NCBI RefSeq assembly: GCF_041381155.1
Contig: NC_091139.1
Span: 8,494,383-8,558,382, forward strand
Reading direction: 5' to 3'
DNA from: Argopecten irradians
Lineage: Eukaryota > Mollusca > Bivalvia > Pectinida > Pectinidae
Length of the DNA stretch: 64,000 nucleotides
Shown in pieces: positions 1 to 62,139 of this stretch. The notes under the pieces are model-generated. The model was not told the origin of the DNA and ran no database searches. It saw only the letters and a list, made by a program, of their open reading frames with translations. Positions within the stretch are counted from its first letter, which is position 1. The number at the start of each line of letters is the position of its first letter. The translations under genes were made by a program, and so were the position numbers.

Positions 1-1133
1 ACGTTAGTATAGCATATAGTCCACCTTTTAACTCCAAACATAACGAAATACCTAAAATGTGTGCGGATTACTAGCAAGTTTATGAAATAACACATAGGTG
101 TTTCCCTCTAACGTTATTCACCATTATATAAACTAAAGTTGAAGGAGAAATGGCAATGATAATGTTGTATTTTGCGCTCACTTCTCTATTTGTCCACGTG
201 ATGATTGTTGATCATCATGACTGACAAAAAAAAAGAACAACGCATTAATGCCAAAGCATGTTATTACAAAAGGAGACTATACACGTGCTAAACACGAATA
301 TACGTAAACAAACGGTTCATGTAAATAGCAATGATGATTCATTAATTATAAAATGATATGGGTATCTGGTTAACTTCTCATATGTATGTAAAACGAAGTG
401 GTGATCGGCCTTGATATGGAGTCCGTGACATACTAATTACACGTTAAATAAGGAGGACATATTATCATGAAAGATGCCAGGGTTGAGGGTGTCATATTCC
501 ATAAATCATTATGGTAAACATTACAATGTAAACTGATAACAGAAATATACCGATATGGAATGACGGGTAGATTTCTTTTCAGTAATAATAGGCTTTTGCC
601 TGTTTGTCCGCTCTGAAATCATACAGTTATTTAGTATTCTGACGAAGAGGTATTTCATTCCACCATGTTTACATATACGATGTAGGTCCATTTTGATAGA
701 TCTCATTATTATAAGTCACCATCATAATCAAGCGTCAAGGCTAAACAATATTGAATCATACATACTGTAAGTACGTAAATACAACTCATTTCATTTCAAC
801 AATAACATTTGTTTGTGAGGCGAAGCGTTTTGTAAGTTGGTAATTTCGGCATAGAGTTTGGCAGGGACATACCTGTAGACATGTTTAAATATTCATTTCG
901 GGGTTTCCTTATTTTGTAGACTAAATCTATGAGTTGATATCCAAAATGGCTACCAAACCACAAACGGATACTCAAGTTAAATCTTATACATTAATACTGG
1001 GCTAAAAAGGGTGTTTTATTTTTTATTTTTTTATTTTTTGTGTGTGTCGTGTTAAAGAAGTCTACTAGTATATTGTATTTTTAAATAGACACTTTGTTCA
1101 AAATATTCAATAATTACAGATAATACAGCACAA
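1..1133. other. 5' flank of the DMRT2-like gene
   Basis: AT-rich sequence with no convincing coding exon, RNA gene or transposon. CACGTG occurs at about 195 and 283, but isolated copies are expected by chance. The last 80 bases run into the first coding exon and may hold its 5' UTR. An AG at about 1127-1128 could instead be a 3' splice site, so an extra upstream non-coding exon cannot be excluded. Confidence 0.4.
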
Positions 1134-1372
1134 ATGGACCAGGAAAACGTCAATCTGGATGGACACCCAATACCACGTGACAAGCCCGTCATTCGGACGA
1201 CCGGACGGAAATTGTTACGTACACCTAAATGCGCCCGCTGTCGGAACCACGGAGTAGTTTCCTGTCTGAAGGGCCACAAACGGTTCTGTAGATGGCGCGA
1301 CTGTCAGTGTCCGAACTGCCTCCTGGTGGTAGAACGTCAACGTGTGATGGCTGCACAGGTGGCGCTGAGGAG
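1134..1372 (+). CDS. DMRT2: DMRT2-like exon 1 (DM domain)
   Basis: Codes a 28-residue leader and essentially the whole DM domain. It ends at AG|GTAAAC with two bases of a split Arg codon. The frame runs straight into a TAA if unspliced, which supports splicing here. Confidence 0.92.
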
Positions 1373-4300
1373 GTAAACTTTTTGGGGGGAGCAATGCTTT
1401 CATTTTTTAACATAATTAGTTAATAATTCAGTTTACTTGTAACAAGCATTTCCATTGGTTTAAAATTCACGAAAAAATGGCGTCAACGTTTGTAACGTCA
1501 CTTCTACTTGACTAAGATAACGGCGGAATGATTTCATAGAAAAAAAGAGTCCCAAAATGAATTGGAATGCTGAAGAGATTACCTATATTGGTCAATTGGA
1601 TTATACGAGATTTTTTTACCTTATGGAGATATTGTAACACAAACATCTGAGTGTACCCACAACATAGAGCACTTCGCGGTTTATCTTATAGTATACACAC
1701 AGATTTTTGAGTGATTCACATGTACATGTATGTATATCGCATGAATATATTCTCAAGCTAAATCCTTCAATACATCTAAATCTGCTGTTGGCATCACTGT
1801 GTCGTTTCGATGAATTCTTTACGGTAACAAAATAAAACAAATTCATGGATTTTTAATGGCATACATTACATCATATAAGAATCCCACATTGTCATGTGTT
1901 TCAATCAACTTTAGTGAAAATATCATTTTATATGAATTATCAGGTTCTCGCTCGCTGGAAGTAGAAAAGACTTTGTCTTGTGTGGCAATGTACTCTTTTC
2001 ATTAACTTTTGACAAGATGTTTGGTCGACATTAAAGGAATTAGTTGTCCGCGTGCCGTACTTGTTGATATCAATTACATTTGATGTAACTTGGCACTATC
2101 TTGTTGCCGTATAAAACGCAGATCTGTTTACTGAGCATGCGCAATGTCGCGCCAGTCCCTCGGATTAATCAGCAGATATCGCCCGATCAACATAATTACA
2201 CTTGTTAAGTTTACACATACATCCCTCTACAAATAAATATAGCCATTTTCTGTAAAGTCGCGTTTCAAGTTACACGACAAAGTTTACGCTACAGAAATCA
2301 TATGCACGTGATAATCGAACAGTGTTCCGGACCACCATACCCGGTGCGGTCTGTTTTCTACACACGCCCCACCTGGGACATTAGCACAAATAAACACACG
2401 CCTACATCATACAGTGCAGAATCGCACGATCGTTTCTTTAGCTTTTGAAGAAAAAAAAAACGCGAAAAATAACAAAGCTTTTTACTAGATGTATTATACC
2501 GTAGATTATTTATGTATTTAGGAATACACATGTAGCCATATTGTTATCTTTATATTTGGGTTTAAATCTGACATGGAATCCCTCATTCCTCTCCCACCAA
2601 GATGCGCGGATCTGATACATGCTATCAATTAATGTATATTTACTTGTACATTAAGTTTCAATCATTATGGCTTGGTGAATCCGGCTCGGTGTTTAGATTT
2701 GACCGAACAAGAATTACAGATAGTAACGAGATCCAACTAAGCCTTAATCCGCGCCATATTGCATGCTAATCACTTACTAATCCCCGACAGCAGGTGCCCG
2801 CTGTCATCCACAGCGGGAACATTTATTTTATTTTACCGAAATGGACTCTGGAAGAACTTTATTTTCCGACAAATGTACTTTTAAATACTATGAACTCCTT
2901 AGAAATCACTGCATTAATTTCTTATGTTTAATGCGAGATATTGAAAATGGACTTATTCTACCTATTTAATTGCGTATAATGAACATTCCATTAATTCAAC
3001 TTACTTCCCAATCAACTCATTTGTGTTAAGCTACAAAGAAAACGTTACCCAATTGATTCAAACACTAAATGTATAATTCAAACAAAAGACCCTTGGGCCT
3101 GTATCTGTATCAGTTACACTGCTATATCCCAAAACTGCTAATCATTCAGCGGCTAAGAGATAGCTCAGGAGGCGGTTTCACGGTCATCTGACAAGTTTTA
3201 TTTGATGAAATACTAAAAGACAACTTAAGAAAAAACTTCAATAGAGCGTCAGCTTTTGGAACCCTCTCCATTGTCTATACGAGTCAGATCAGCCATATTT
3301 ATTGATAATGTAGTTCAAATTAAATTTGGTTGTAATCCAAATTGATAGGAATTTCAAGCAAACTTCAGCAATGGCCCCGTCCATTCGTCCAAATGTATCG
3401 GTCTTGCTTCATTTACATAAGATATCATTGTCCTTTTCCAATGCTACTTCACAACAAAATCGGTGATAATCCATATTGGAGTTAAGGAGTAGTAGACTTT
3501 AATTAAATAAAATCGTCTCACACACGGCACATCACGACGGACGAAGCACGATGGCAATAGGTCATCATGACCCTTCGCGTCAGATGACTTAAATAACACA
3601 AAACAAATCCTTTTTCATGCTTAAAGGGACAATTCAGTCTAAGAGAACATTAAAATTTGTACATATATATCAGAAAACCCCAGTTCTAATGGAAATTAGA
3701 TCAGTCGGTTTTACTGTGATATGCCTGAAAAGCCAATGGTGGTGACATGTGTGTGAAATGTCGAACTTCTTGTATGCCGAACCCTGTCCCTTGCTCGTAA
3801 AGTAATGCAACTTTTGGCTAGAACTGCTCAAATCGCTCTGACAGTAGTTTTATTATTATTTTATTACCTTCTCAGTGGTTATGTAGTTCATTTGTTTAAC
3901 GTGCGTGACTTTGGCTCGGGTATGGGTACAGCGTCCATGTTGTACCTGCTCAATCGTATTGATCAACGATTTGATATTTCAACGATATTAATTAAAATAC
4001 TTAACAATGTCGTGGACTTTGTCAATGTTTTACGTTAAATGTTTCATAAGAAATGTAGAACAATACATTAATGCTATGTTTTGCTTCTTGATTATGTAAA
4101 AGAATTTGCCTGAGTGAATTATCTCTTTAAGTCTGATTAATTAAGCGAGGACAGACACCACTGAAAACGTACAGAGACAGAATCAGGCGTTCCTTGAGAG
4201 GAGGCGTGTTCTTCTTCATCAATGCCGCCAAACATAAAAATATTCTTACTTGAAACGGGATGGTTAATGATCTACAGTCATGGCACATTAAATCATCTAT

Positions 4301-5360
4301 TTAAACGAGTCGTAGGAAATTACTTTCGAAAAAAATTAAAACAATATTCATTGGTTGTATTGATAACTCTCACAATTAAGTTAACATATAGTCCATATAG
4401 ATATATTTTCTCTTTCTAGACACCAGGCCTCGGATATGACAATCACTTTGAAGGACAAAGTCAAGACGGCAACCCAGATTCTCCAACACCGGAAGTTGTT
4501 ACAGCGCAATCTCAGAAGCTTACAACAGCAATCAGTGTCACGTGATGTTCTAAGCAGTAAGTAATATTTGAATTGAAAAATAATAATTTGATAATTTTAG
4601 TCTGTAGAAGATCCCAAGATAAGCTCTAAAGAATATTTCTAAAAATTTTTTATTATATTTTCAGATATTAACAAAGTATTTAATATTTACAGAATGCCGA
4701 CAGAAGCCTTCTTTTTATGACGTAGGTGAGAAGCACCTGCCGCCAATTTTCAATGAACGCATGCGCAAACGAAGATGTTTTGCAGATAAAGAGCTTGAAC
4801 TTGCAATGTTTGAACGTGAGAGACAAAGCGAAATATTACAAACAAAAGTGAATCGCCATGGAAACGGAAGTTCCCTCACTGGCCTTGTCGGAACAGATAC
4901 CTCGGATATGGCGTCAATAGTTCCAAGTATTCACCGCGAATTTCTGCAACAGTTATTCCCCTTACATAGCACGAGTGTGATAGAATTGGTTTGGCAGGGT
5001 TGCCAAGGTAACTTGCAAAAGGCAATACATCAAATCGCACACAATGTACCATACATCCAGCCGGGTCTGTCACAACTTCCGGTAGCGGAACTTATTCACC
5101 GGACCATGCATTCTAATATCAGTGAATTCAGTTACATGGGACTAGAGCACATGGAACCGGAAGTCTATGACTGCAGTCATCCCAACCGGAAAGAAACTAG
5201 TGATAGCAAAAGTAACACAGACAATGCTACTGGATTACCCCTCTCGAAATTAAAAGATACGAATATGGAGGGATCGCCAGATCGTAGTTCTAGCGAGAAA
5301 AAGGAAGTAAGGCCTTGCAGACTGAAATTTTCAGTAGCGGCAATTATCGGAGAACTTTAG
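1134..5360 (+). CDS. DMRT2: DMRT2-like DM-domain transcription factor with C-terminal DMA domain (3 exons)
   Basis: Nuclear zinc-binding transcription factor of the doublesex/mab-3 family. Exons 1134-1372, 4420-4556 and 4693-5360 join in frame to 347 codons plus stop. The DM domain (about residues 28-80) has the CARCRNHG start, the intertwined Cys/His ligands and the [14 protein letters not shown] recognition tail. The reading [18 protein letters not shown] is the form I know from DMRT2. A second DMRT2-like block, [20 protein letters not shown], begins at residue 149. Residues about 206-242 ([12 protein letters not shown]..., [12 protein letters not shown]) form a DMA domain, a CUE/UBA-like fold typical of DMRT3 and DMRT4/5. 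The C-terminus [12 protein letters not shown] contains an eh1-like F-x-V-x-x-I-I motif, a possible Groucho contact. The start is the first in-frame ATG and has a good context. Family assignment is sure; the DMRT2 subtype is likely. Confidence 0.9.
2740..2820 (+). promoter_or_regulatory. Candidate enhancer patch in DMRT2-like intron 1
   Basis: Less AT-rich patch holding an octamer-like ATGCTAATCA, two TAATCC (K50 homeodomain-type) cores, a CAGGTG E-box and a perfect 8-bp stem, CCCGCTGT (2797-2804) with ACAGCGGG (2810-2817), around a 5-base loop. No dispersed-repeat match is seen. Function is inferred only from motif clustering. Confidence 0.25.
3081..3594 (+). mobile_element. Short pearl-like dispersed element, first family
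   Basis: Begins with a degraded GACCCTTGGGCCT-type head and a CGGTCATCTGAC motif. It ends with ACGGACGA-type repeats and a nested hairpin in which GGTCATC and GATGAC enclose TGACCCTTCG. The same head and tail bound the longer copy at 12854-14806, so this is an internally shortened relative inside DMRT2 intron 1. Confidence 0.6.
3620..4131. mobile_element. 512-bp MITE with TTAA ends
   Basis: Terminal inverted repeats: CTTAAAGGGACAATTCA at 3620-3636 pairs with TGAATTATCTCTTTAAG at 4115-4131 (15 of 17 positions). The TTAA at each outer edge looks like a target-site duplication of the piggyBac type. The element lies in DMRT2 intron 1. A 77-codon open frame inside it has no family features. Confidence 0.65.
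4420..4556 (+). CDS. DMRT2: DMRT2-like exon 2
   Basis: Preceded by a pyrimidine-rich TTTTCTCTTTCTAG acceptor and followed by GTAAGTAA. It completes the split Arg codon (phase 2 in, phase 1 out) and codes [20 protein letters not shown] and a basic, Gln-rich linker, consistent with the segment after the DM domain. Confidence 0.85.
4693..5360 (+). CDS. DMRT2: DMRT2-like exon 3 (DMA domain, stop)
   Basis: Acceptor ATTTACAG. The exon completes the split Lys codon, then codes the [13 protein letters not shown] block, the DMA domain, a Ser/Thr/Lys-rich stretch and the eh1-like C-terminus. It ends in TAG at 5358-5360. Confidence 0.92.
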
Positions 5361-19983: not shown

Positions 19984-22900
19984 CTGAAAAAATGGATATA
20001 TACAGGTATTAATATATTTTTTTTTTTCATATTTAGAAAATAGTTACTTACATGTAAATCTTCCAAAGTAGTTTTAATATATTTAAATATATACATACAG
20101 TGGAACCCCCCGAAACCGATCATGGTCGGTGCATATAATTTTGGCCGGTTTAGAGAGGGTTCGGTTTGGAGAAGTGAACCGAATATCGATCATTACGATC
20201 CGGATTTAATTGATCAGAAGTCGTTTTGTATGTACTATACTGTACTGCCTGTATGCCTAGTTTTCGTTATAACCGTCCGATATTGATTGTTAATGTGAAT
20301 GTTATCACAAAAGAGAGAATCATACGTTTAAAAGGAATGTATTACAGCAATCTCGACTTTTTTACCACTTATAAACGTAGTTAGTTGCGTGAATGTTCTT
20401 GGGGATGTTAGATTGTTGGGGATGTTCTCGTCTGCACTAACCTACATACGGCCAATCGCTTCCAGTTACGTCAAGAATCAAATTAATTAAATAAGGTCTA
20501 ATTACACGATGATCAGTCGATGCCGGTCATTATATGACATTGTCATCTTTTAAAACAATGTATGGCTTCAACTTCTTCATACAAATTATTTACGTTATCT
20601 GACAACTAAATAACCTGTGAAACTCTCAAGATTGAATACAAAAATTTCTCTTTATTACTAGCTCTGCTTGTTTTCCTACAGTATAAACAAATCGTCAGTG
20701 CACGTGGTAGACCTTTGTTAAATGTCTAAACAATTGACATAATTAAATAATTACACCATTATCACTGGTATAATTACCTGTGAAACATATACCTTTAGCT
20801 TTCACACCTGTATACATGCCCCAGGACATGGCTTGCGACAACTATGGATACAGGTACGTGTGTATTTCAAGGTTGGTTGATCAGACCTCAATGCAAGCTA
20901 TCGATGTCGCTCAGGTAAGGCCGGTTTTTCAGAAGTGTATTTTAGTTACATTTGACTATTCCGATCTCAAAATCGGTCTGGTATTCGGAGTTGGGAGGGA
21001 TCGGTTTTGGTAAGTTTTATTTACTATTAATAAAGACGAATTCATTCCGTACATGACATCCATGTTCAGTTTCTAGAGGTGATCGGTTTTGAGAAGGATC
21101 GGTTTCGGGAGGTTCCACTGTATATATATATATACATATAACATTTTCAATCTTGACAATGAGATCCAAAATTAAAATGTCAAATAAAGGTTTCAATAAT
21201 TTAAAAGTTAGCTACATACCTATTCAATAACTTGGCTTGTTCTTTTCTCAGTTTCCATTTGCGATTTTCGTGCTTTTTACTTTTCAGGTGACCTGGATCA
21301 TTAAATGAAACACAAACTGAGTGTCTATTGATTTTCCTGGTTCCTTGAGTTTAGGAACTAGCAATCCATTTGAATACAATATTTAGACAACTTTGATGCC
21401 CATTTTCAGGTAGTAGATAATGAAAGAAAATGTAAGAAAACAATGTTTATTTTATTGACTAATTTACTGATGTACTTGAACATCTTGGTTTATTATAGTT
21501 AATTTACTATGGGATCAGGTCAGAGAAACATTTCATTCGTTTTTAGCTTCACAAAATACATACACCAAGGATATTTTTGAGTTTGGATATTTTCGTAAAG
21601 TAAGCTGTTTGCAGTGTTATAATTTCTGCACTGTGTATCTATAATCTAAATATATCTGTAGTCACATGTCAAGATTTACATATGGTAATATGTGTGCACA
21701 CAGATACATTTTACTAGATTGATGAAAGTGAAATATACAAAAATGTCCACGCTTTTAATAATGGCACTTTTTATAGTATTATATATTAATACTTACTCTG
21801 CCATTCGTTTGATGTGTAGAATATCCGTCCATCACAGATATCACACACTTCATGTATGTGATGATTATCTGTCTCTTCATACGGGATCGGGGCATGACTG
21901 GGTTCTCTCCCCTTAAACATCAAAATAAAACCCAAATGTCATATTGATTGTACAAAGGGAGATAACACCTATAACATCACTGTAACTGTCCTGGATACAG
22001 ATACACGTGTTACATTATGCTGATCTGCATGCTTTATATTCTTTCGCATTAATTCTGAAATTAAAACTGAAACTTTATTTACAAATTTGATAACAACAAT
22101 TTTACTCCAGCAAAATCTATCATGTAAATACAAATGAGGATTAATAATTAATCAATTTGTTCACTTGTAAAAATAATGGTGAAGATTTCTATGACATGTA
22201 TTTTTGCTTATGAAAAACCTATATTTTTATCTGAAAAATGTCCATGGTTGTTTTTGTTACCTATGATTTTACATGCATTATATTTAGATTTTTACAGCCT
22301 GTAGTCTAAAGGCCCACTACCTTTCAGGAGTAAAACATTAAGGTTTCTTTAAAAGATAAATAAAATCAGAAAATATATAACAATGGCCGAAGATAAGCTT
22401 ACAACACCAAACTTACGCAAGATTTCCTACGTAATATACAGTAATATACTCTGCAACAGTGCAGAGTCATTTTGCTGTTTTGCCATCTGGCACCATGATA
22501 GTCAACTACAGAGCGGTATTTAGGATGGCAGCGGGAAACATAAGACGACTCACTTTATAAAACGTTTTATTTATTTTAATTAGATTGTTAAGAAGGTGAT
22601 GATACGTGTAGTATTAACAGTAAGTTAATAAATTTTGTGACTCTACAAATTATTGATCTTGTTTTACATTGCCATTTTAAAATTAAAAGCTGTTTTGGAA
22701 AGGTAGTGGTCCTTTAATCAAATGATATCAATGAGAATTTCTACAGCCAGTAGTTTACCTGTAACATATCCATGAGAATCTCTACAACCCTTAGTTTACC
22801 TGTAAGATATCTGTGAGAATTTTTACGGCCTGTAATTCACCTGTAAGATATCCGTGAGAATTTTTACTGCCTGTAGTTTACCTGTAAGATATCGGTGAGA

Positions 22901-25900
22901 ATTTTTACTGCCTGTAGTTTACCTGTAAGATATCCGTGAGAATTTCTACAGCCTGTAGTTTACCTGTAAGATATCTGTGAGAATTTCTACTGCCTGTAGT
23001 TTACTTGTAAGATATCTGTGAGAATTTCTACTGCCTGTAGTTTACCTGTAAGATATCCGTGATAATATCTATAGCCTGTAGTTTACCTCTAAGATATCTG
23101 TGAGAATTTCTACAGTCAGTAGTTTACTGTAAGATATAGGTGAGAATTTCTACAGCCTGTAGTTTACCTGTAAGACATCTGTGAGGATTTCTACAGTCTG
23201 TAGTTTACCTGTAAGATATCTGTGAGAATTTCTACTGCCTGTAGTTTACCTGTAAGACATCTGTGATAATATCTATAGCCTGTAGTTTACCTGTAAGATA
23301 TAGGTGAGAATTTCTACAGCCTGTAGTTTACCTGTAAGATATCTGTGGAGATTTTTACGGCCTGTAATTTACCTGTAAGATATTTGTGAGAATTTCTACA
23401 GCATGAAGTTTACCTGTAAGATATCTGTGAGAATTTCTATAGCTTGTAGTTTACCTGTAAAATATCTGTGAGAATTTCTACAGCCTGTAGTTTACCTGTA
23501 AGATATCCGTGAGAATTTCTACAGCCTGTAATTTACCTGTAAGATATTTGTGAGAATTTCTACAGCCTGTAGTTTACCTGTAAGATATCCATGAGAATTT
23601 CTATAGCCTGTAGTTTACCTGTAAAATATCTGTGAGAATTTCTACAGCCTGTAGTTTACCTGTAAGATATCCGTGAGAATTTCTATAGCCTGTACTTTAC
23701 CTGTAAGATATCCGTAAAAATTTCTATAGCCTGTAGTTTACCTGTAAGATATCCGTGAGAGTTTCTACAGTCTGTAGTTTACCTGTAAGATATCAGTGGA
23801 ATTTCTACAGCCTGTAGTTTACCTTTAAGATATCTGTGAGGATTTCTACAGTCTGTAGTTTACCTGTAAGATATCCGTGAGAATTTCTATAGCCTGTAGT
23901 TTACCTGTAAGATATCTGTGAGGATTTCTACAGTCTGTAGTTTACCTGTAAGATATCTGTGAGAATTTCTACAGCGGGTATTTTAACTTTGTCCTCCCAT
24001 TGTGAGACGTCGGAGACATCAAGTTCATAAACAGGTATTGTATTGGCACCTCGACCTGCACAACACACAACATACACATATTACGTATTGGCACCTCGAC
24101 CTGCACAACACACAACATACAAATATTACGTATTGGCACCTCGACCTGCACAACACACAACATACACATATTACGTATTGGCACCTCAACCTATAGAACA
24201 TACAACATACACATATTACGTAATGGCACCTCGACCTGCACAACACACAACATACAAATATTACGTATTGGCACCTCGACCTGCACAACACACAACATAC
24301 ACATATTACGTATTGGCACCTCAACCTATAGAACATACAACATACACATATTACGTAATGGCACCTCGACCTGTACAACACACAACATACACATATTACA
24401 AGTCCTTTCGGAACTTGGATAACAGCATGGACATATTTTCAATAGTTTTCGTAAAAGTGACCTTGACATTTGACCTTCAGACTTCATGACCAATCTCTAG
24501 TTTGCCAGTTTGGTAAGGAGCTAGCTGCTTGAAGTTCGAGCTTGATTGGCACTGTCATGTTGGTTTAACCTTTGACAAAATAAATGATGTAATACCTCGG
24601 TATGTTGAGTGACAGTATTATCAACTGGTCGATTGGTTTTGTCAATTGTCCAGAGGGGCGGAATTTTGATAGCCTACCCGATGTCAGGCGATAGAACGGG
24701 TGGGCAGAGTTAATCTTACAATGTTCTTGAGTTTGAAAGGCAACATGGCTGCGACTGATAAGAACGGGTTACTGACGGACAGTAATATCGTCTTGAAATA
24801 CTTGATCTTCATTATAAACTAAAGGATTATCTTTTTTCATGAGATTAGTAAAAAAAAACCTGATGTTACAATAGGAGGTTGTCACAAGATTATAAAGAAT
24901 GTGACTGCACGAGGGAAATTTGACCCGGTCACCTGTTCATCGGAACCCAAGCAAAATTACCAACGAAGTCTTAAGTTTATAGATTAAACAGTCATAAAAT
25001 AATGACCCGTTTATTGGAAAGGAATGTTCGTACACCACAAAAGGTTCCATCGGACATTTTAGAATTTAGAGGCAATTTGCTGCATTTCCACATAGAAGTC
25101 CCAACGATAACAACGTTAGATCTACGAGCGTACGATGTTGGTCATTGAATGTTTGAAAAAACAACACATTCTGTAAGAAATCCATTAACAGCCGATAAAT
25201 CTGGAGTGAATTAAAAGTACTTTAGACGGCATTGATATTTAAATAATTAAGAAGTTGATTGATAAAGAAACAAACAGAGGTAAACTTTCAGCCATTACGT
25301 TGTTCATGAAATAAACGTTTGTGGCGCACATTGATATTCCCTACTGTACAGTACCGTGAATTATGCTAGCAATGACGCGAAAAAGTTATCCAGTATATCC
25401 CGACTGAAACACGGAACAGCAGCAGCTCATGAAAAACCATATTTATCGCATTTAATGCCAGAGCTTTCTTTGAAAAAAAAAAACGTCTGTTGTAAGAACT
25501 GCAGGGGAATACAAAGTATGGACACATCCTGCAGTTCTTATGAATACGGTAATACCCGATGAGTTCATGATAAATCTAGTTCTTAGAGTACTGTAATACC
25601 TGATGAGTTCAGGAAAGATCTAGTTCTTATGAGTTCGGTTATACCCAATGAGTTCAGGATAGATCTATCACACGAGGGTCACACACATCACACGATATAA
25701 GCCACGCCCACCAACCAATCAACTCGCATTTAGCATTATATTGTAACCCAATATGCAATAGGTATTGTGCAAGTTGCGCGGCTAGTTCATCACTATCATC
25801 GTCAACGGTTAGACCGACATGGAAGTAATGAAGATGTGTATGAAATATAAGATTAGTTTCCAATATGGTTAATATCACAATCAAACTTATGTGGATGTAA

Positions 25901-28900
25901 CCGGGTCTAGCAGGAATTTGCCTTCATCACTGTAGAATGTTTAGTCGCATATCAAGCTCTAACAATTTAGGCAGTTACTTTAAGCTTCTTAAAATGTAGG
26001 GAGCTGTTTTGGGTGAGTGGTTCAGAAGTTCTGATATATTGCTACAAGCCCTCCAACTATAGGTCAAAAGCTTGAATACCACAATGTGGGGCAGTTGCCA
26101 GGTACTCACTGCTGGTTGGTTGTTTTTCTCCTGATACTCCAGCATCTAAACCGGGCACATTCTTAAATGACCCTAGCTGTTAATAGGACATTATTCTTAT
26201 TATACCAAACTACGTAAAATATAATCACTGGGTACTTACGTTTGATATACCTGTTGCGGATGTGTTTCACTTGGTACTTAGCATAGGCTCGAGTTCGTCT
26301 CTTCAAATTCTCCACTCCTGTAACACAGCAGAAAATATATCAATATCGGTCTCCAAATACTACAATATAATATCAAATGTTTGAACTTATGAAAGTGTTA
26401 GACATATCATTCTGCTGGAAGTTTCTAGAATTTTAGAATAAATGCAACAATGCAACATTACAATTACACCAATACAAGTATGTGGGTTTTTTTTGTTTGG
26501 CTTTTTGAAGAATCAGAGTAAGATGAGGATTGTCAGTGTGTTAAGCATATAAACACCTCATGAAATTTCTTTATTTTTCTTGTTGTAGATGGTGAAAATG
26601 TTATTGAACGACTTTTGAGCCATTATATCGTAGGACACAACCCAGGCATTTTACAGACTGTTGTTATCCGTTTCCAAAGACAAATATCAGGAGAAATAAC
26701 CTCTAACTCAACTAGAGACAACATTCCATAGATCCACAATTTAAAAAAATATTGTAAGCCAAAAGTATATTTGCATGTGATTAAAATTTGCACTTTATGT
26801 GGTTGAGTAGATATGGTGAAAATTAATTGCTGTGAAAAATTGTCCAGTCTGGTCACTCCGGCATAAAATGTACCTCCTGCATAAAAAGAATGCAGACATG
26901 ATGTGAAAAAGATGAAAGGCATTGGAGTGTAAAATTATGTAAGTTGTAACCAAGAAAATAAACTGATTTACATAGACCTTGTCTATGCCATACCTTCTTT
27001 GAAGAGTTGCCTCCCTTTGTCTGTGCTCTGCTCCTCCTTTGATAGTATGAGATAGTCGTGGAATTCCTTGAAGCCGATACTTTGGAATATCCCATGTGTG
27101 TAATCTGCTACACTGTTCTAACACAAAAGTCAGCCATTATAACGATGATCCTAACGAAGTAGAATTACACCCTAGGGGTGGTTCGACAGACAATTTCTCT
27201 TTATTATTACTATCTCCCTATAAGCGGTCAGTGTTGTAGTTGATGGTCACTTTACCTTATTACTTTAAGCTGAGGTCAGCATTTTATTTGACGATTCACT
27301 TTACCTTTCTTCCTTTAAGCGGTCTGCGTTTTACTGCTGATGAAAGTCCATGTAGCTCGTCCACAAGGCCACGTTCTATCATTGTGTCCACTCGTTGGTC
27401 AGTCCTCCTGCCCAGCTCTGCAAATCAGATATTTAATATCTTATCAACTAGAAGGGAAACTTCATAAGAGTTACCTCCCCCTTACCCAGTTTTAGTTTCT
27501 ATATTGCCAAAAATCTATGCATGTAATTAAACTGTCTAATATATGCTAATTTAAGGGTCAGTTTTCCTTCAGAATTTGGCATATCATGCTCATTACTCTG
27601 TGCTGTCAATATGCAATGTATAATATTTACACTTTTAATATTATGCATACAATAATCTCCCAATCTTTACTTCATGTCAACAAACCACAGTTCTAACTCT
27701 TGTTCCCTGTGATACAATAACAAAAGCTATTCTAGTCTTTATACCAATGAAATACAGTGTATCTCAGTCTCACCCTGAAGATCACTCTGAAGCCAGAAGA
27801 CACATGTGTTCTGGAACCTTAGGGGTCCACTAGGGGCCTGGTTAGGTAACTGGCTCCTCTGGGCCCTGTACACACTGCTCATAGTCACTTTATGGGTGTC
27901 GTATATCTCAAGGGCCCTGAAATTTTACATATAGGTATTCAACATCATTACATAGAATCCAAGGAAGTAAGAAAGCAGTATGTATTTATAGTAATTCTGA
28001 TCAAGTTATATACTATAAATTATCATGTGAACATAGAATGTGAAAGAAGTTCTTTAACTTGTGCTAATTTAACTTATAATTATATATAAGCATACAAATG
28101 ATCCTTGAAGAGGGAAAAAAAAAACTGAAATGCCCAGAGAAAACCCATGATTGGGTAAGTGATTCCTGACATTTTCATACCTGTTAAGTCCTTGCCTTAG
28201 ATCTAAACCTGGCTGGTTAGATTAAATATGAACGACATTATACCTACAACCAGATCACCCTACCACGCGATAAGTGTTGTCGATCATGATTAAAGTATTG
28301 ACAGTATTGTTTATCTTAAAAGATGCTCCACCGACTGACAAATGGTATTTTTTCACTATTAAAAACAGGAGCAGACGATTTAGTATTTTTTTCAGTTACA
28401 AAAAATTACTTACTTTACATCATTAACACCATTGAAAAGTTTGAGCTTCTAATTTTACTTCAAGTTAAAAATATGAAAAATAATTAATTGCATCCCGAAA
28501 AAAATCCGTACCACTATATCCTATATGAAATGAACTACTGAATGCGCATGTACCAAAGGCAAAATAAATTATTTTATATTATTTTTTGTGTTAATTAGAC
28601 TATTATATACACGATTAAACACCAATTATTGTTCAAATGATGAATATCATTTTTGGTCTGTCGGCGGTGGGAGCATCTTTAATAATTTGTTTTTACTGTT
28701 TTTGGTAATTGACCACTTTTGTTTACCTGGCAATTTTGCGGCGATTGTTGGGATGAAGTGTGCGTGCTATTTCAGGATCTACCTCCTTAAGACGTGCGTA
28801 TAAGACATCGGAATCGATCCCTTCGTACTTTTCCTGGTCTGTTGACATCTCGTCACCAAATTCATAAAGTCTTGGTTTGACAGTGTCAATAACATTAACT

Positions 28901-40900: not shown

Positions 40901-43900
40901 CCTCCACTGTAACTGGCAATCTGTGTAATAAGGAATGATAGTAGAGCCCCTAGGGAGCTAGTTCTTAGGAGATATATAGTATTATATAGAAGGTCTATCT
41001 ATCTGATAGGAGGGCCCTAGGGATCTAGACCTTCAATGAACTCTACTCTATGTCCTTTCTGCCAAATCTATATCAGCTTTACATATATTTCTGATGTTTC
41101 TGCTCCAGTACTTTTTTTCTTTTTCAGTTCCAAGGTAAAACTGAAGAGTCCAAGAAGGATAAAATTTGTATTTTGTAAGGTTAACATTTGTGGTAGTCTC
41201 ACCGAGAATTCCAAGAAAGGTAAATTAGTGATGACAAACATCATTGACCAGTACTATATGTACAGGAGGTTTGCATTGAATCCCAAAAATCACTGACGAG
41301 CTGATGAGGATAAAGAAACTATATGATGTTCTAAAGTCCTAGATTGACAAAGAGTTGTATGTGTCCGTAACATCTTTGACAAGTCCTTGGATGAAAGAAT
41401 TGCATGGTTTCTAACATCACTGATGTATCATAGGACAAAACATCTGTATTATGTCCCTAACATCACTGATGTGTTGTAGAGGGACAAAACATCTGTATTA
41501 TGTCCCTAACATCACTGATGTATCATAGGACAAAACATCTGTATTATGTCCCTAACATCACTGATGTATCATAGGACAAAACATCTGTATTATGTCCCTA
41601 ACATCACTGATGTATCATAGGACAAAACATCTGTATTATGTCCCTAACATCACTGACGAGTTGTAGAGGGACAAAACATCTGTATTATGTCCCTAACATC
41701 ACTGGTGTATCATAGGACAAAACATCTGTATTATGTCCCTAACATCACTGATGTATCATAGGACAAAACATCTGTATTATGTCCCTAACATCACTGATGT
41801 ATCATAGGACAAAACATCTGTATTATGTCCCTAACATCACTGATGTATCATAGGACAAAACATCTGTATTATGTCCCTAACATCACTGATGTATCATAGG
41901 ACAAAACATCTGTATTATGTCCCTAACATCACTGATGTATCATAGGACAAAACATCTGTATTATGTCCCTAACATCACTGGTGTATCATAGGACAAAACA
42001 TCTGTATAATGTCCCTAACATCACTGATGTATCATAGGACAAAACATCTGTATTATGTCCCTAACATCACTGGTGTATCATAGGACAAAACATCTGTATT
42101 ATGTCCCTAACATCACTGACGAGTTGTAGAGGGACAAAACATCTGTATTATGTCCCTAACATCACTGATGTATCATAGGACAAAACATCTGTATTATGTC
42201 CCTAACATCACTGACGAGTTGTAGAGGGACAAAACATCTGTATTATGTCCCTAACATCACTGACGAGTTGTAGGGGGACAAAACATCTGTATTATGTCCC
42301 TAACATCACTGATGTATCATAGGACAAAACATCTGTATTATGTCCCTAACATCACTGATGTATCATAGGACAAAACATCTGTATTATGTCCCTAACATCA
42401 CTGACGAGTTGTATAGGGACAAAACATCTGTATTATGTCCCTAACATCACTGATGTATCATAGGACAAAACATCTGTATTATGTCCCTAACATCACTGAC
42501 GAGTTGTAGGGGGACAAAACATCTGTATTATGTCCCTAACATCACTGATGTATCATAGGACAAAACATCTGTATTATGTCCCTAACATCACTGATGTATC
42601 ATAGGACAAAACATCTGTATTATGTCCCTAACATCACTGACGAGTTGTAGAGGGACAAAACATCTGTATTATGTCCCTAACATCACTGATGTATCATAGG
42701 ACAAAACATCTGTATTATGTCCCTAACATCACTGATGTATCATAGGACAAAACATCTGTATTATGTCCCTAACATCACTGATGTATCATAGGACAAAACA
42801 TCTGTATTATGTCCCTAACATCACTGATGTATCATAGGACAAAACATCTGTATTATGTCCCTAACATCACTGATGTATCATAGGACAAAACATCTGTATT
42901 ATGTCCCTAACATCACTGATGTATCATAGGACAAAACATCTGTATTATGTCCCTAACATCACTGATGTATCATAGGACAAAACATCTGTATTATGTCCCT
43001 AACATCACTGATGTATCATAGGACAAAACATCTGTATTATGTCCCTAACATCACTGACGAGTTGTAGGGGGACAAAACATCTGTATTATGTCCCTAACAT
43101 CACTGACGAGTTGTAGGGGGACAAAACATCTGTATTATGTCCCTAACATCACTGATGTATCATAGGACAAAACATCTGTATTATGTCCCTAACATCACTG
43201 ACGAGTTGTAGAGGGACAAAACATCTGTATTATGTCCCTAACATCACTGACGAGTTGTAGGGGGACAAAACATCTGTATTATGTCCCTAACATCACTGAT
43301 GTATCATAGGACAAAACATCTGTATTATGTCCCTAACATCACTGATGTATCATAGGACAAAACATCTGTATTATGTCCCTAACATCACTGATGTATCATA
43401 GCACAAAACATCTGTATTATGTCCCTAACATCACTGACGAGTTGTAGAGGGACAAAAAAACTGTTTGATGTCCCTAACATAACTGACAAGAGACAAACAG
43501 CTGGAAATTATGAAATTATCTGCAGGTCTCAAAATGATAAGACAGATGTATTTGGTAGTCCATTAATGTTTGCACTTTTATAAATCTTGAAAGTGTTAAT
43601 ACCTATGTTTTACACATATCTAATCTTTTTAAAAGTACATTTGGGTTTGTTAACATCAGAAGTTGTTCAGGGATGCTGATATGGACAAGTAAGAGCTATA
43701 TACCTAGAGACAGTGTACCGTATTCGACCCAATAAGAGCCCATGTCCCTATAAGCGCCCCTTTCCCTTTTTGAGACCTCAATTTCAATTGCCCAGGCATA
43801 AATAAGGACCAAAACTACATAAAACGATATAAATTTGCAATAATTTTGACTTATTAGCACCTTTTCATTTTTATCAATTTTTTAAGTGCCCTGAGCGCTT

Positions 43901-46900: not shown

Positions 46901-49900
46901 TCTTTATTAAATGAACACAATATTTTTTGTGATCTGGCTAAAAGGTTTGTTTATCTCTCTCTTGTTATATTTCACTAATCCAATTTGTGGAACAATGTCA
47001 ATACCTCAAACCAATACACCTCCATCATCATAATTAGACTTGATCTATATCAATTCAATTTTTATTCAATTGTTTGCTAAACTATTAATATAAGCAGTTA
47101 ACCATTCCCTTATAACTTAATTGAAAATGGCCTGAGCTAGATAAGCGTGTTTAAGATAGAGATCTTTTGTTTCCACTTGATAACTCTGATGTATTCTGCT
47201 GTAAAGATAGCCAGCCAATTCATAACTTAAGTGGCTCTAAACTACAGCAAGTGATTAAAATATAATGTATTGTGTTGATCTTATCTATTATCATCAGGGT
47301 AAGATAGTAATCAAACACTATAGGTCAAGTATCCCTCACCTTCTCCAGTCACTGTAAAATGTACCGTACTGCTTCTAGTCACTGTAACATGTACCATACT
47401 TATTCTACAGTCACTGTTACATGTACTGTACTTATTCTACAGTCACTGTAACATGTACCATACTTATTCTACAGTCACTGTTACATGTACTGTACTTATT
47501 CTAAAGTCATTGTAACATGTACTGTACTTATTCTACAGTCACTGTAACATGTACCGTACTTATTCTAGTCACTGTAACATGTACCGTACTTATTTTACAG
47601 TCAATGTAACATGTACCATACTTATTCTACAGTCACTGTAACATGTACTGTACTTATTCTACAGTCACTGTAACATGTACTGTACTTATTCTACAGTCAC
47701 TGTAACATGTACCATACTTATTCTACAGTCATTGTAACATGTACTGTACTTATTCTACAGTCACTGTAACATGTACCGTACTTATTCTAGTCACTGTAAC
47801 ATGTACCATACTTATTCTACAGTCAATGTAACATGTACCGTACTGATTCTACAGTCACTGTTACATGTACTGTACTTATTCTACAGTCACTGTAACACGT
47901 ACCATACTTGTTCTATAGTCACTGTAACATGTACCATACTTATTCTACAGTCACTGTAACATATACTGTACTTATTCTACAGTCACTGTAATATGTACCA
48001 TACTTATTCTACAGTCACTATAACATGTACTGTACTTATTCTACAGTCACTGTAACATGTACTGTAGTTATTCTACAGTCACTGTAACATGTACTGTACA
48101 AATTCTACAGTCACTGTAACATGTACTGTATTTATTCTACAGTCACTGTAACATGTACTGTACTTATTCTACAGTCACTGTAACATGTACTGTAGTTATT
48201 CTACAGTCACTGTAACATGTACTGTACAAATTCTACAGTCACTGTAACATGTACTGTATTTATTCTACAGTCACTGTAACATGTACTGTAGTTATTCTAC
48301 AGTCACTGTAACATGTACTGTACAAATTCTACAGTCACTGTAACATGTACTGTAGTTATTCTACAGTCACTGTAACATGTACTGTACAAATTCTACAGTC
48401 ACTGTAACATGTACTGTAGTTATTCTACAGTCACTGTAACATGTACTGTAACATGTACTGTACTTATTCTACAGTCACTGTAACATATACTGTAGTTATT
48501 CTACAGTCACTGTAACATGTACTGTACAAATTCTACAGTCACTGTAACATGTACTGTAGTTATTCTACAGTCACTGTAACATGTACTGTACTTATTTCTA
48601 CAGTCACTGTAACATGTACCGTACTTATTCTAGTCACTGTAACATGTACCGTACTTATTTTACAGTCAATGTAACATGTACCATACTTATTCTACAGTCA
48701 CTGTAACATGTACTGTACTTATTCTACAGTCACTGTAACATGTACTGTACTTATTCTACAGTCACTGTAACATGTACCATACTTATTCTACAGTCACTGT
48801 AACATGTACCATACTTATTCTACAGTCACTGTAACATGTACCGTACTGATTCTACAGTCACTGTTACATGTACTGTACTTATTCTACAGTCACTGTAACA
48901 CGTACCGTACTTGTTCTACAGTCACTGTAACATGTACCATACTTATTCTACAGTCACTGTAACATATACTGTACTTATTCTACAGTCACTGTAACATGTA
49001 CCATACTTATTCTACAGTCACTATAACATGTACTGTACTTATTCTACAGTCACTGTAACATGTACTGTAGTTATTCTACAGTCACTGTAACATGTACTGT
49101 ACAAATTCTACAGTCACTGTAACATGTACTGTATTTATTCTACAGTCACTGTAACATGTACTGTACTTATTCTACAGTCACTGTAACATGTACTGTAGTT
49201 ATTCTACAGTCACTGTAACATGTACTGTACAAATTCTACAGTCACTGTAACATGTACTGTATTTATTCTACAGTCACTGTAACATGTACTGTAGTTATTC
49301 TACAGTCACTGTAACATGTACTGTACAAATTCTACAGTCACTGTAACATGTACTGTAGTTATTCTACAGTCACTGTAACATGTACTGTACAAATTCTACA
49401 GTCACTGTAACATGTACTGTATTTATTCTACAGTCACTGTAACATGTACTGTACTTATTCTACAGTCACTGTAACATGTACTGTAGTTATTCTACAGTCA
49501 CTGTAACATGTACTGTAGTTATTCTACAGTCACTGTAACATGTACTGTACAAATTCTACAGTCACTGTAACATGTACTGTAGTTATTCTACAGTCACTGT
49601 AACATGTACTGTACAAATTCTAGTCACTGTAACATGTACTGTAGTTATTCTACAGTCACTGTAACATGTACTGTACTTATTCTACAGTCACTGTAACATG
49701 TACCATACTTATTCTACAGTCACTGTTACATGTACTGTATTATTTTACAGTCACTGTTACATGTACCATACTTATTCTACAGTCACTGTTACATGTACCA
49801 TACTTATTCTACAGTCACTGTAACATGTACTGTACTTATTCTACAGTCACTGTAACATGTACTGTAGTTATTCTACAGTCACTGTAACATGTACTGTACA

Positions 49901-52900
49901 AATTCTACAGTCACTGTAACATGTACTGTATTTATTCTACAGTCACTGTAACATGTACTGTACTTATTCTACAGTCACTGTAACATGTACTGTAGTTATT
50001 CTACAGTCACTGTAACATGTACTGTACAAATTCTACAGTCACTGTAACATGTACTGTACAAATTCTACAGTCACTGTAACATGTACTGTAGTTATTCTAC
50101 AGTCACTGTAACATGTACCGTACTTATTTTACAGTGACTGTAACATGTGCCATACTTATTCTACAGTCACTGTAACATGTACTTTACTGATTCTACAGTC
50201 ACTGTAACATGTACTGTACTTATTCTACAGTCACTATAACATGTACCGTACTTATTCTACAGTCACTGTAACCTGTACTGTACTTATATTACAGTCACTG
50301 TAACATGTACCGTACTTATTCTACAGTCACTGTAACATGTACCGTACTTATTCTACAGTCACTGTAACATGTACCGTACTTATTCTACAGTCACTGTAAC
50401 ATGTACCGTACTTATTTTACAGTGACTGTAACATGTACCGTACTTATTCTACAGTCACTGTAACATGTACCATACTTATTCTACAGTCACTGTAACATGT
50501 ACTGTACTTATATTACAGTCACTGTAACATGTACCGTACTTATTCTACAACCACTGTAACATGTTCTGTACTTATTCTACAGTCAGCATTAAATGTAAAA
50601 CACTACCAATATTATTTTACAGTTAACTGTAAAACAAGACATACCGCCTCACAAAATATTCTGACAGGGCTTCCAGGACAACATGGATACAAGCTAGAAC
50701 ATGATTGTAAAAAACAATTTGATTCTCGTCATTTTTCGTAATCATTTTATATTGTAATGCTGAGATATGAATTTAAATTTAGCCATTCAGATATATAACA
50801 TTATCATGTTCCAGCTATTCATGTGGGACATACGATATGTGATGGGATGCAACAGTGATAGACCTGATGGGATGGTACAGACATAGGTAACACTAAATGG
50901 CCCTCCCCTCTCCTCATTTTAGGGCAGGGTATAAAAATCAAGAGAGATTGATGCTGGGAAGTAGAGATCAACTTCTTCTTGACTAAGTTTAGCATGTTGA
51001 TATTTACCTATTTTTGATAGTAGAAAATATATTTGTTTTTACAAAATAATATTAGTGTAGATGTTTACCTGTTTAGTGACAATGAAGTTCCACAGGAGTG
51101 ACTCGATGTAGTAGCTGGTGCCTCCCACAATGATTGGCAGTTTCTCCTGTCTCAGTAGTCCATCTATCTGATCAGAGAGTCAAGGTTATATCTGCTAACT
51201 CCATAAAGCTAAATATACAGTAAAATTCAAATCTACAGTGTATACCAGTAACGTGGTTTGGTTCTGAAAAACAGACTTACTGATTAAGTAAATAAAAAAT
51301 AACAATTTAAATAAGGAGAATTTTTTTTTTTTAATTTTGATTGATGTCAATGCTTTTGGCTTAAAGAAACCAGCTGGGCCAGGACTTCATTCATCATTAA
51401 TTCTGATTAAACTGTACATGTATAATAAAACACTAATTATGTTTTCTTTCTTTTCATACTAAATCCAAATTTCTGATTGACAGATTTTTTCATAATACAT
51501 TTATGTGTAGATAAAATTTGAGAATGACACTAAATCCTGACAAATCATGACATCAAAATAGAGACATTGATGTCAACATGTCACTTTTTTTTTTATTTTA
51601 TCATGTTATGAAATAAATTTTGTTTGCAAACTGTTGTGGGAATCCACTTCACAATTTGTTTCATAACCCGATAAAATAAAAAAAATAGTGATATTAAAGC
51701 TTAAGTACACAGATTAAGTGAAAATAATGTATCACTTTATGATACATCTTTTTATCAAATGCACACAGAGAAAAAAATCATCTCAAAAATAGGTAACGAT
51801 TACACAGCCAATATTTCCTAACCTGAATTTCAGGTCAAGAAATCTTGACCTGAAATTCCCCTGAAATCGACCAGAAATTCTGGTTAATTTCAGGTGAAAT
51901 TCTGGTCAATTTCTGGTCAATTTCAGGTTAAGATTTCTTGACCTTAATTTCAGGTCAAATTTCAAGAGAAATTCTGGTCAATTTCAGGTGAAGATTTCTT
52001 GACCTGAAATTCAGGTAAAATTTCATGCAAAATTCTGGTGAATTTCAGGTGAATTTCAGGTCAAGAAATCTTCACCTGAAATTCAGGTTAAGAAATCTTG
52101 ACATGAAATTCAGGTCAAGAAATCTTAACCTGAATTTCGGGTCAAGATTTCTTGACCAGAAATTCTGGTCAATTTTAAGGTCAATTTCAGGTTAGGAAAT
52201 ATTGGCTGTGTATATAGCTATGTTTTATCGACAAATATGACCAACACACATGTCTGAAATAAAATCTTCAAATAACCTGATCTGCTTAAAACCAGCAGAT
52301 CTTCACACTCCAAAGGTGTCAGATCTATATACTGGAATATACAGTATCGGAGTGCAATCGAAGATCTAATCAGATTGCAGATCACCATATCATGTACATG
52401 TCAAGTGTACTGATCATGATTGTAGCCAAATTAGTTCTTTCTAAACGCTTAAAGAAATTGTTGAATCAGTTTTTTAACAATATAATGCTTGTATCCTTTA
52501 TATGTGTTACAGAATAGAAGGAAAGAGACCATATTAACCTTCCAGAACAAACTGGCCATATATATTTATGAGAAGTGAAAGGTCTCCATAGCAGATATTA
52601 ATTTTCTCCCATACTTCACAGGGATATCCCGTGGTTGCTAGGGAAAAGATATCTCTATCTTATACAGGGGGGTGTAAGACAGCTCACACGCGCTAAACAA
52701 TAACATGACGTCATCAATACATGCGGCGTAACTGCGGCGCGCATTGTAGATGACGTCATCAATTTTGACGCATAACGTCATTCCTGCGATCCTGGCGTGA
52801 TGAAAAAGCTGAAAACCAAGTGGAATTTCATCATTTTTTCTACTAAGTATGGGAGAAAAAGAATCTTACAAGCCTCGGGTTGACTGGCCGAAATCTTTCA

Positions 52901-60096: not shown

Positions 60097-60782
60097 TTAG
60101 AAATCCCTAACTTGGAGTTTGTTCAAAGTTCTCCTCAACTGATCATTTTTAGCACGAAGCGTGTCCCTTTCCTTTTCCAGTCTCAAACTCTCGTGGTTGA
60201 GTCTGTGTATATGGTCGGCAGCTTTTTTCAGAATCATAACTTTTGGTGCTCTTTCTTGCTGTGAAAGTTCTGGTACACTGTCCCTTAGAGAGAAAAAGCT
60301 ATATTTCAAGTCATTTCTCCTTTTACGTTCTAGAACATTATGTTGAGTCCGTTTGCCACCCTCACAACACTCTTCAGAGTCTGAACTGCTTCTACTAGAT
60401 GAAGCACTACTGCATCCACTACGCGATCCTGCTCGAGAGAGTTTTTGACACAAAGATTTCTGAAATTCCGGAGCACTAAATTCACGTTTTATCCGTTTTG
60501 AGGATGATATAGAGTTTGATGGTGACACTGGGTTTGACCGTGCACGTTTTAGCGAATGTGAATGTGGGAGACTATAGTTGTGTACATCCGTGGGACAGTC
60601 TACTTTCACTTTCAATGTTATAGAACTTTTCACAGGGGATTTCACTGCACTTGCATAGTCATTATCCTCGCGCTCAGTCTTTATACATCTGGCTGGTATT
60701 GTTGTGGACTTTCTGATCTGTGATGGTTCAAATTCTTCTGAACTCATTTGTTCTCGTACTGTGACAACATCAATTTCTTCTT
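60097..60782 (-). CDS. MYC: MYC exon 3 (acidic region, bHLH-Zip, stop)
   Basis: Acceptor GTTTTTGCTTTGCAG. Codes residues 168-395, including two basic clusters (SLKRARSNPVSPS, SSSKRIKREFSAPE) that may serve in nuclear import, and a Ser-rich acidic run before the bHLH. TAA at 60097-60099. Confidence 0.96.
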
Positions 60783-61514
60783 CTGCAAAGCAAAAACAAT
60801 ATTTTAGAATACAAGTTACAGTGTAACTTAGCAACTTTTTCAAACATTATACACGTCAAAATTTTTTTTGAGATTTTTTTTTTTTTTTTTTTTATTTAGA
60901 AAAATAAAGTTCTACAGATTTAAACTATATTTGTGTGTAATTTGAAACGTGTTCTTAACTCGTATTTTTTCAATCAGTTTTTTCCACCTCAAACTAGTTG
61001 AATTTTAATTACCTGAATCAGATGGAGTCTCAAGGCCTTGTATATTGTCCACTCTGGTCTCTGTCATGTACTTGTCAGTGATGTTGTGCATGGGATAGGG
61101 GAATACCGATGCTGGATCCACACAATCCGCTGCAGCATTTGTTTCCATTGATGAATTACTGTTCGATTTCTGTTCAATATATCCCTTAGCTAAATTTCCA
61201 GACCACATACAATCCTGAATTAGTTTTGACTGCAAGTTCAAAGGTGTGCCCTCAGCAAATATGTGCTTCATTGTGGCAAGAACATCTTCCTCTCTGTTAT
61301 CGAAGAATTCAACATCATCGCAAAAGCCAATTTCCTCCAGTTCTGGAATCTCTGTCATTGCCTCGTGTGGAGGCGACCCCGGAGGCGTTGGTGGTCCAAG
61401 ATCAAATTTATTCCAAATATTCATGCAAATTGAGCTGCCATTGTCGCAAGTCTGGCATTTGTGCATTTCGTTGTCCATTTGATGTGGATATCCTTTGGAA
61501 ATCCGTACAACCAT
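60097..61514 (-). CDS. MYC: MYC bHLH-leucine zipper transcription factor (2 coding exons, 395 aa)
   Basis: Nuclear regulator that dimerises with MAX and binds CACGTG E-boxes. Coding exons 61013-61514 and 60097-60782 join through a split Glu codon. MYC box I is NIWNKFDLGPPTPPGSPP (residues 33-49), with T43 and S47 in the T58/S62 phosphodegron spacing. MYC box II is LIQDCMWSGNLAKGYIE (98-114). The acidic SDSEEEIDVVTV lies across the exon junction, as in vertebrate MYC. The bHLH is KRTQHNVLERKRRNDLKYSF through KKAADHIHRL (311-362), followed by a leucine zipper to about 391. The chosen ATG is one base after the exon 2 acceptor. The N-terminus is shorter than in vertebrates: MYC box 0 is not seen, and a C-x2-C-x6-C cluster sits at 20-30. 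It could be compared to MYC or MYCL; invertebrates usually have a single gene. Confidence 0.97.
61013..61514 (-). CDS. MYC: MYC exon 2 (transactivation domain)
   Basis: Acceptor CTATTAATTTACAG|A then ATG; donor GATTCAG|GTAATT. Codes residues 1-167, with MYC boxes I and II. The exon layout (boxes I-II in one exon, bHLH-Zip in the next) is the same as in vertebrate MYC genes. Confidence 0.95.
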
Positions 61515-62139
61515 TCTGTAAATTAATAGAAGAAATATAAATTTCAAGAACAAGACATGTGTATCGACCTACATGCTATATTTAGCTAACGAATACGTTG
61601 GACCTAGACCTTGTTGGAGAACGTTAAGCCCCGCCCACCAATCGCGTGGTTGCATGGGGCTCGTTATTCAGTATTTTACAATATTGAATTAAACTTGAGC
61701 TAAACTTAATAAATAAAAATGTTTCACAATATAATTAGCTAACATAGGACAAGGTAAAGTTACTGTCACAAAAATTAAAGAAGAAATACTAAGTATGAGC
61801 TTAGCTGTATCGAACTTGGCAAAGATTCAAGATTTTCACGTTGCACAAGCATGGGCCGACATACCTGAGCCGGCGAAATAAATTTAGTCGATAAAAGCAA
61901 AAAGTACAATTGTTCAACTCAACAAACTTATCCAATATGATTCAACAAGATACAAGCTACTAATGACAACTGGTGTCAAGTGTTGTTAAAGAGTATAAAG
62001 ATTGAAAATCTGTCAAACATGGTTTTGACAGTTCTCTCCGGTAACGAGGCCTCGTATATCGCCTATTATACAGAAAAAATAATTTTTCAATAATCACTTG
62101 TATCAAATAGGATACCTTATGATAAAATAAAACACGTAC

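Follow-up and report, generated by a model that had tools for sequence, protein, structure and literature searches.

Tandem repeats whose unit lies across an exon-intron boundary are known from amphioxus as "mirage" minisatellites, with examples in Adh3, the globins BflGb6 and BflGb9, troponin C and PGBD5 (PMC3087553, PMC3902484). In the excerpts of these two papers, the units contain either the acceptor or the donor edge, many of them keep the AG or GT, and their length is 10-72 bp in Adh3 and 150-160 bp in the globins; regular splicing is reported for Adh3 and for the globins. Lancelet PGBD5 has two mirages, which adjoin exons 3 and 4 at their 5' splice sites (PMC3902484). The same excerpts report mirages in amphioxus, describe them as possibly cephalochordate-wide and suggest that new introns could arise from them (PMC3087553, PMC3902484). 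Here we describe two tandem arrays that have the structural features of a mirage in a mollusc, the bay scallop Argopecten irradians. They lie on either side of exon 9 of TRIT1, the gene for the tRNA-modifying enzyme tRNA dimethylallyltransferase, on the minus strand of a 64,000-nucleotide stretch of genomic DNA (hereafter the window; see Table 1 for coordinates).

The scallop arrays resemble the amphioxus mirages in that a tandem unit, here 41 or 45 bp long, spans the exon-intron boundary and AG and GT are largely kept. As far as the excerpts go, they differ in that the host is a mollusc, both edges of one exon are affected, there are about 30 copies, and the case is known from DNA and an annotated protein. 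In human segmental-duplication paralogs, internal tandem repeats are also located at exon-intron boundaries, with 27 intron modifications described (PMC2812944). In that study the repeats change splicing or give rise to introns in paralogs of recent origin, whereas the annotated scallop protein (the RefSeq sequence P0001) is regular, and the two matches to the TRIT1 family PF01715 among the best candidates of a genome search fall in one gene. Tandem duplication is more generally a proposed and partly tested route to new introns, with ATP2A1, potato RdRp and fission yeast as cases in the excerpt of PMC4974935. Like the segments in that model, the scallop copies are duplicated AG/GT segments able to seed introns or exons; unlike them, they already span an existing junction, and P0001, the one protein examined for this, reveals no new intron or exon made from array copies. 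A 38-bp variable number tandem repeat in TERT intron 6, which steers splicing, is likewise an intronic minisatellite, but it lies more than 1 kb from the junctions and is not described in the excerpt as derived from an exon edge (PMC3948165). The first-pass annotation of the window, made from the DNA letters, knew of no described case of this kind; the amphioxus mirages and the human boundary repeats are precedents. Mirages in molluscs, or two mirages on one exon, are not reported in the literature that we searched, outside of which most subscription journals lie. New here is the recurrence of mirages in a second scallop gene, CCT3.

The first-pass annotation had named the gene correctly. Both PF01715 matches, from a search of the 845.8-Mb genome, lie within TRIT1, and the locus is found once among the best candidates in the one assembly searched. 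The exons were located by tblastn with the human protein as the query, and P0001, annotated in RefSeq as the A. irradians tRNA dimethylallyltransferase, matches 99% of the joined exons at 98% identity. P0001 includes the residues encoded by exon 9. Exon 8 ends in ATC AAA C, exon 9 runs from GT CGA GGT to TTA CAG, and exon 10 starts with GGG AGA GAA; when joined, the three exons read IKRRGANT...DILQ/GREP, as in P0001, which connects them without additional residues. The splice phases and P0001 together thus identify the exon-proximal copies as the genuine splice sites. In an alignment of 16 proteins from the 120 listed, the residues encoded by exon 9 are conserved across molluscs, a hemichordate, a spider and a mammal. 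The product of exons 8 and 9 has an unchanged length in Pecten and Mizuhopecten and aligns recognisably in the other animals. The protein model of Ylistrum balloti (P0005) diverges where exon 9 begins and a partial Mizuhopecten model (P0003) stops exactly where it ends; each may reflect an annotation fault. A search of the Protein Data Bank with the exon 9 peptide gave no match.

On the donor side of the exon, the 41-bp unit consists of the last 30 nt of exon 9 followed by 11 intron nt, GTAAACTACAG, and Tandem Repeats Finder (TRF) reports 30.6 copies with 88% matches. The array splits into 31 rows: 28 of 41 nt, two of 40 nt and a 29-nt partial. The exon-proximal 41-mer, which is exon 9's own end, is identical to the consensus. 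All 28 full-length rows have the donor GT in place, and 22 of the 31 rows carry the 9-mer CAGGTAAAC without change. Leaving the partial row aside, 26 of the 30 units are distinct, and the mean pairwise difference among the full-length ones is 4.6 of 41 positions. On the acceptor side, the 45-bp unit is made of 29 intron nt followed by the first 16 nt of exon 9 (8.0 copies, 91% matches in TRF). AG is retained in 8/8 of these units, five of the eight are distinct, and a three-unit block occurs twice with one difference between the two occurrences. These unit tables agree with the earlier claims that each array is built from exon 9's own splice-site edge and that the exon is surrounded by some 29 decoys of its donor and 7 of its acceptor. 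An element of 410 bp that resembles a miniature inverted-repeat transposable element (MITE) has inserted into the 41-bp array at its distal end; the leftover fragment that it cuts off accounts for position 22288, where the first-pass annotation had the feature begin.

Both arrays therefore consist of head-to-tail units that contain the exon-intron boundary. A single complete exon is left, the outer copies are intronic, and splice signals are kept in many units. The repeat is derived from the gene. We searched the genome with each unit, scoring the best candidates only and skipping very common words: 16 of 16 matches of the 41-bp unit and 4 of 4 matches of the 45-bp unit fall in the TRIT1 arrays. 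Each unit is thus confined to a single place among these candidates, which rules out a dispersed repeat as the source, in line with the first-pass annotation. Because exon 9 encodes an ancient, conserved stretch of protein, the copying presumably ran from the exon to the arrays, a direction also proposed before.

We consider the exon 9 arrays to be, most probably, two mirages that grew from chance duplications across the edges of the exon and that are tolerated by splicing. Short duplications would have happened to span the acceptor edge and the donor edge, and both arrays would then have expanded by unequal exchange or slippage, with steps of several units included. The mostly distinct 41-bp units and the repeated three-unit block of the 45-bp array are as unequal exchange predicts. 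Arrays at exon edges would be tolerated because a duplication across an edge always leaves one intact exon; the outer copies would be intronic and almost unconstrained, and the exon-proximal copy would be held by selection on the TRIT1 protein. Splicing would use the exon-proximal acceptor and donor, and use of an outer site would give an early stop codon. Read-through from each of the 7 outer acceptors meets an in-frame stop. When exon 9 is extended past its genuine donor, the first added unit already contains a stop, which also ends any extension to a donor farther out. The outer sites are either unused or their products are lost. We infer that exchange was the mechanism and that the decoys are rarely used.

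How surprising are two arrays on one exon? The share of sequence in tandem arrays with a period of 15 or more is 27.2% in the window. In an even sample of the same chromosome, 200 kb in all, the share is 15.05%, and 29 arrays are 150 bp or longer. The excerpt of the genome report for A. i. irradians gives a TRF tandem-repeat share of 15.10%, 26,777 genes and 7.11 exons per gene (PMC7090048). In 20 evenly spaced 10-kb stretches, the array density is 34 per 200 kb (period 15-120, 2.5 copies or more), and random placement predicts that 0.7-0.9% of exon edges are affected. Over approximately 137,000 internal exons, multiplied by (0.007 to 0.0094) squared, about 7-12 exons with arrays at both edges are expected by chance; this estimate is before selection and assumes that the array density of introns equals the sampled density. 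One such exon is therefore unsurprising, and the argument of the first-pass annotation that this arrangement is very unlikely by chance was overstated. In the same 20 stretches, the 34 arrays and the 101 candidate frames at array ends contain no conserved exon recognisable by eye, with no family-library search made, and this result counts neither for nor against. Within the TRIT1 span, a hand-merged list holds 14 arrays, of which 12 have, by eye, no contact with a tblastn-located exon. TRIT1 intron 3 (approximately 22 kb, window 29.1-51.1 kb) is over half tandem arrays; examples include a 32-bp unit repeated 101 times (47341-50585) and a 46-bp unit repeated 44 times (41411-43486).

We are also interested in the base rate of mirages in this genome. 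As a sample we took the CCT chaperonin genes, chosen as conserved and multi-exon; a genome search gave 59 exon rows, and four gene stretches (31.3 kb in total) were analysed. In the first pass, which covered exons matched by hidden Markov models plus 60 nt on either side, an array lies at an edge in 2 of 24 exons. Both are in CCT3, to which 5 of the 24 exons belong; within 60 nt, the other three genes have no array at an edge of any of their 19 exons. When CCT3 is mapped with the human protein (13 segments), a third array is also found at an exon edge (Table 1), and these are all three of the arrays (period 10 or more) that TRF lists in the 9-kb stretch. The 74-bp unit, the one CCT3 unit searched, is again confined to a single place (3/3 matches local among the best candidates). 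Mirages recur in the scallop genome: there are five in two genes. For 32 exons and 64 edges, three mirages are seen versus 0.46-0.60 expected by random placement (Poisson P = 0.012-0.023), a rate of 4.7% (95% interval 1.0-13%), in a count that combines the finer CCT3 map, made after the first two hits, with the coarser map used for the remaining three genes. In the even first pass, 2 are seen versus 0.45 expected of 48 edges (P about 0.08), and CCT3 alone, a gene picked after the fact, gives P = 0.002. The enrichment at exon-intron junctions (P about 0.01-0.08) is suggestive. Among the CCT stretches, a 172-bp array of 4.9 copies (L044, 2125-2960) looks, by eye, like the core of a transposon-like element. 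C451 and C4 near 11.54-11.57 Mb give the same or nearly the same CCT match scores, and C451 may be an unremoved haplotig.

Might the duplications be directed to exon edges? A process targeted to junctions, e.g., breakage or template switching in transcription and splicing, would make such duplications more frequent than array density predicts. The first-pass annotation had suggested a process that duplicates across junctions. This part of its proposal stands as a possibility, since all three CCT3 arrays are at exon edges and the count over 64 edges exceeds random placement; the enrichment itself goes no further than suggestive. The sample is small and one gene holds all three of its mirages, with 0/19 exons in the other genes; CCT3 was more finely mapped after the first hits, and the even pass is weaker. 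TRIT1 contributes two more, but it was selected because of them, and most arrays of its span (12 of 14) stand apart from exons. On balance we think a junction-targeted process unlikely. Somewhat more doubtful still is the broader proposal that short tandem duplications in scallops start preferentially at exon-intron junctions through a mechanism coupled to transcription or splicing, and that mirages would thereby provide spare splice sites and in-frame proto-exons recurrently and across the genome.

It is very improbable that selection retains the spare sites as decoys that slow or regulate TRIT1 splicing by unproductive splicing. The presence of GT in 28/28 full units and of AG in 8/8 is what such selection would leave, but 17 of the 41 columns of the donor-side unit are invariant anyway, GT being two of those, and the nine donor columns, with 8 changes, are only 13th in conservation among the 41 cyclic windows. 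Moreover, in one CCT3 donor array the G at -1 has been lost in common by its three outer copies. The unremarkable conservation of the donor columns speaks against selection on donor sites and leaves unsupported the selection for splice-site multiplicity that the first-pass annotation had offered; we see no sign that spare sites are being maintained. Slightly less credible again is the idea that the outer 41-bp units serve as additional 30-nt exons, each adding a 10-residue repeat. All 28 full units, among them the one that belongs to the exon itself, have a 30-nt exonic piece that is free of stops in the TRIT1 frame, is in phase 0-0 and precedes a GT; 24 of the 28 end in AG. However, the 10-residue repeat is absent from P0001, and the acceptor-like ACTACAG has no pyrimidine tract evident by eye. 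Distinct variants of the unit are synonymous in 9 of 25 cases, which is not significant (P 0.11-0.32), and coding constraint on the outer units is rejected on this ground; the absence of stops among the variants is expected by chance (P 0.32-0.37). Assemblies are notoriously prone to error in tandem arrays, and the copy numbers given here may be wrong. An assembly artefact as the origin of the arrays is nevertheless about as improbable as the additional exons, given the 26 distinct units out of 30, the transposon-like element that breaks the 41-bp array and the equal anatomy at CCT3.

In our best reading, copying of exon edges by unequal exchange is frequent in the repeat-rich scallop genome, and splicing tolerates the copies. 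Several points weigh against it. The clustering in CCT3, where 3/3 arrays of a single stretch lie at exon edges, is a hint that more than blind duplication is at work; the regular splicing of TRIT1 is read from an annotated protein, P0001, which is one of 3 member sequences; and the array-free ancestor is deduced from the protein only.

Five mirages in two bivalve genes, of which CCT3 was taken only for a base rate, suggest that mirages may be common where minisatellites are dense. If they are, scallops would be natural experiments on how the spliceosome chooses among near-identical sites, and could show how often edge copies become introns or exons.

Table 1. Features of the TRIT1 exon 9 region (window positions) and mirages of CCT3 (positions in L043, on contig C10)
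Feature	Position	Strand	Basis
TRIT1 exon 9, 110 nt	23946..24055	minus	enters phase 1, leaves phase 0; P0001 residues; alignment with other animals
TRIT1 exon 8, ends ...NRYIK C/GTAAGT	26240..26317	minus	phase reference
TRIT1 exon 10, starts GREPSH...	21801..21911 (3' end approximate)	minus	phase reference
Genuine acceptor AG, exon-proximal copy	24056..24057	minus	phase with exon 8 and P0001 sequence
Genuine donor GT, CAG/GTAAAC, exon-proximal copy	23944..23945	minus	exon 9-exon 10 join in P0001
41-bp donor-side array, ~30.6 copies	22719..23975	minus	TRF 22724-23975, unit tables
45-bp acceptor-side array, 8.0 copies	24040..24399	minus	TRF, unit tables
Leftover 41-bp array fragment beyond the inserted element	22288..22306	minus	read by eye
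MITE-like insertion, 410 bp, 19-nt terminal inverted repeats, TA at both ends	22307..22716	.	arms 22307-22325 and 22698-22716, 95% complementary
CCT3 acceptor mirage, 74 bp x 5.0, unit of 54 intron + 20 exon nt	L043 (contig C10) 2092-2459, exon starts 2439		TRF
CCT3 donor mirage, 40 bp x 4.1	L043 (contig C10) 5466-5629, exon ends 5481		TRF
CCT3 donor mirage, 53 bp x 4.5	L043 (contig C10) 6657-6895, exon ends 6703		TRF

Elsewhere in the window, a MYC gene with Myc_N and bHLH domains (60097-61568, minus strand) lies approximately 6 kb upstream of the TRIT1 start. Since MYCL and TRIT1 are adjacent in vertebrates, the closeness of MYC and TRIT1 in the scallop may reflect an old shared gene order. 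On the plus strand, two open frames at 1089-5360 encode DM and DMA domains of the DMRT type.

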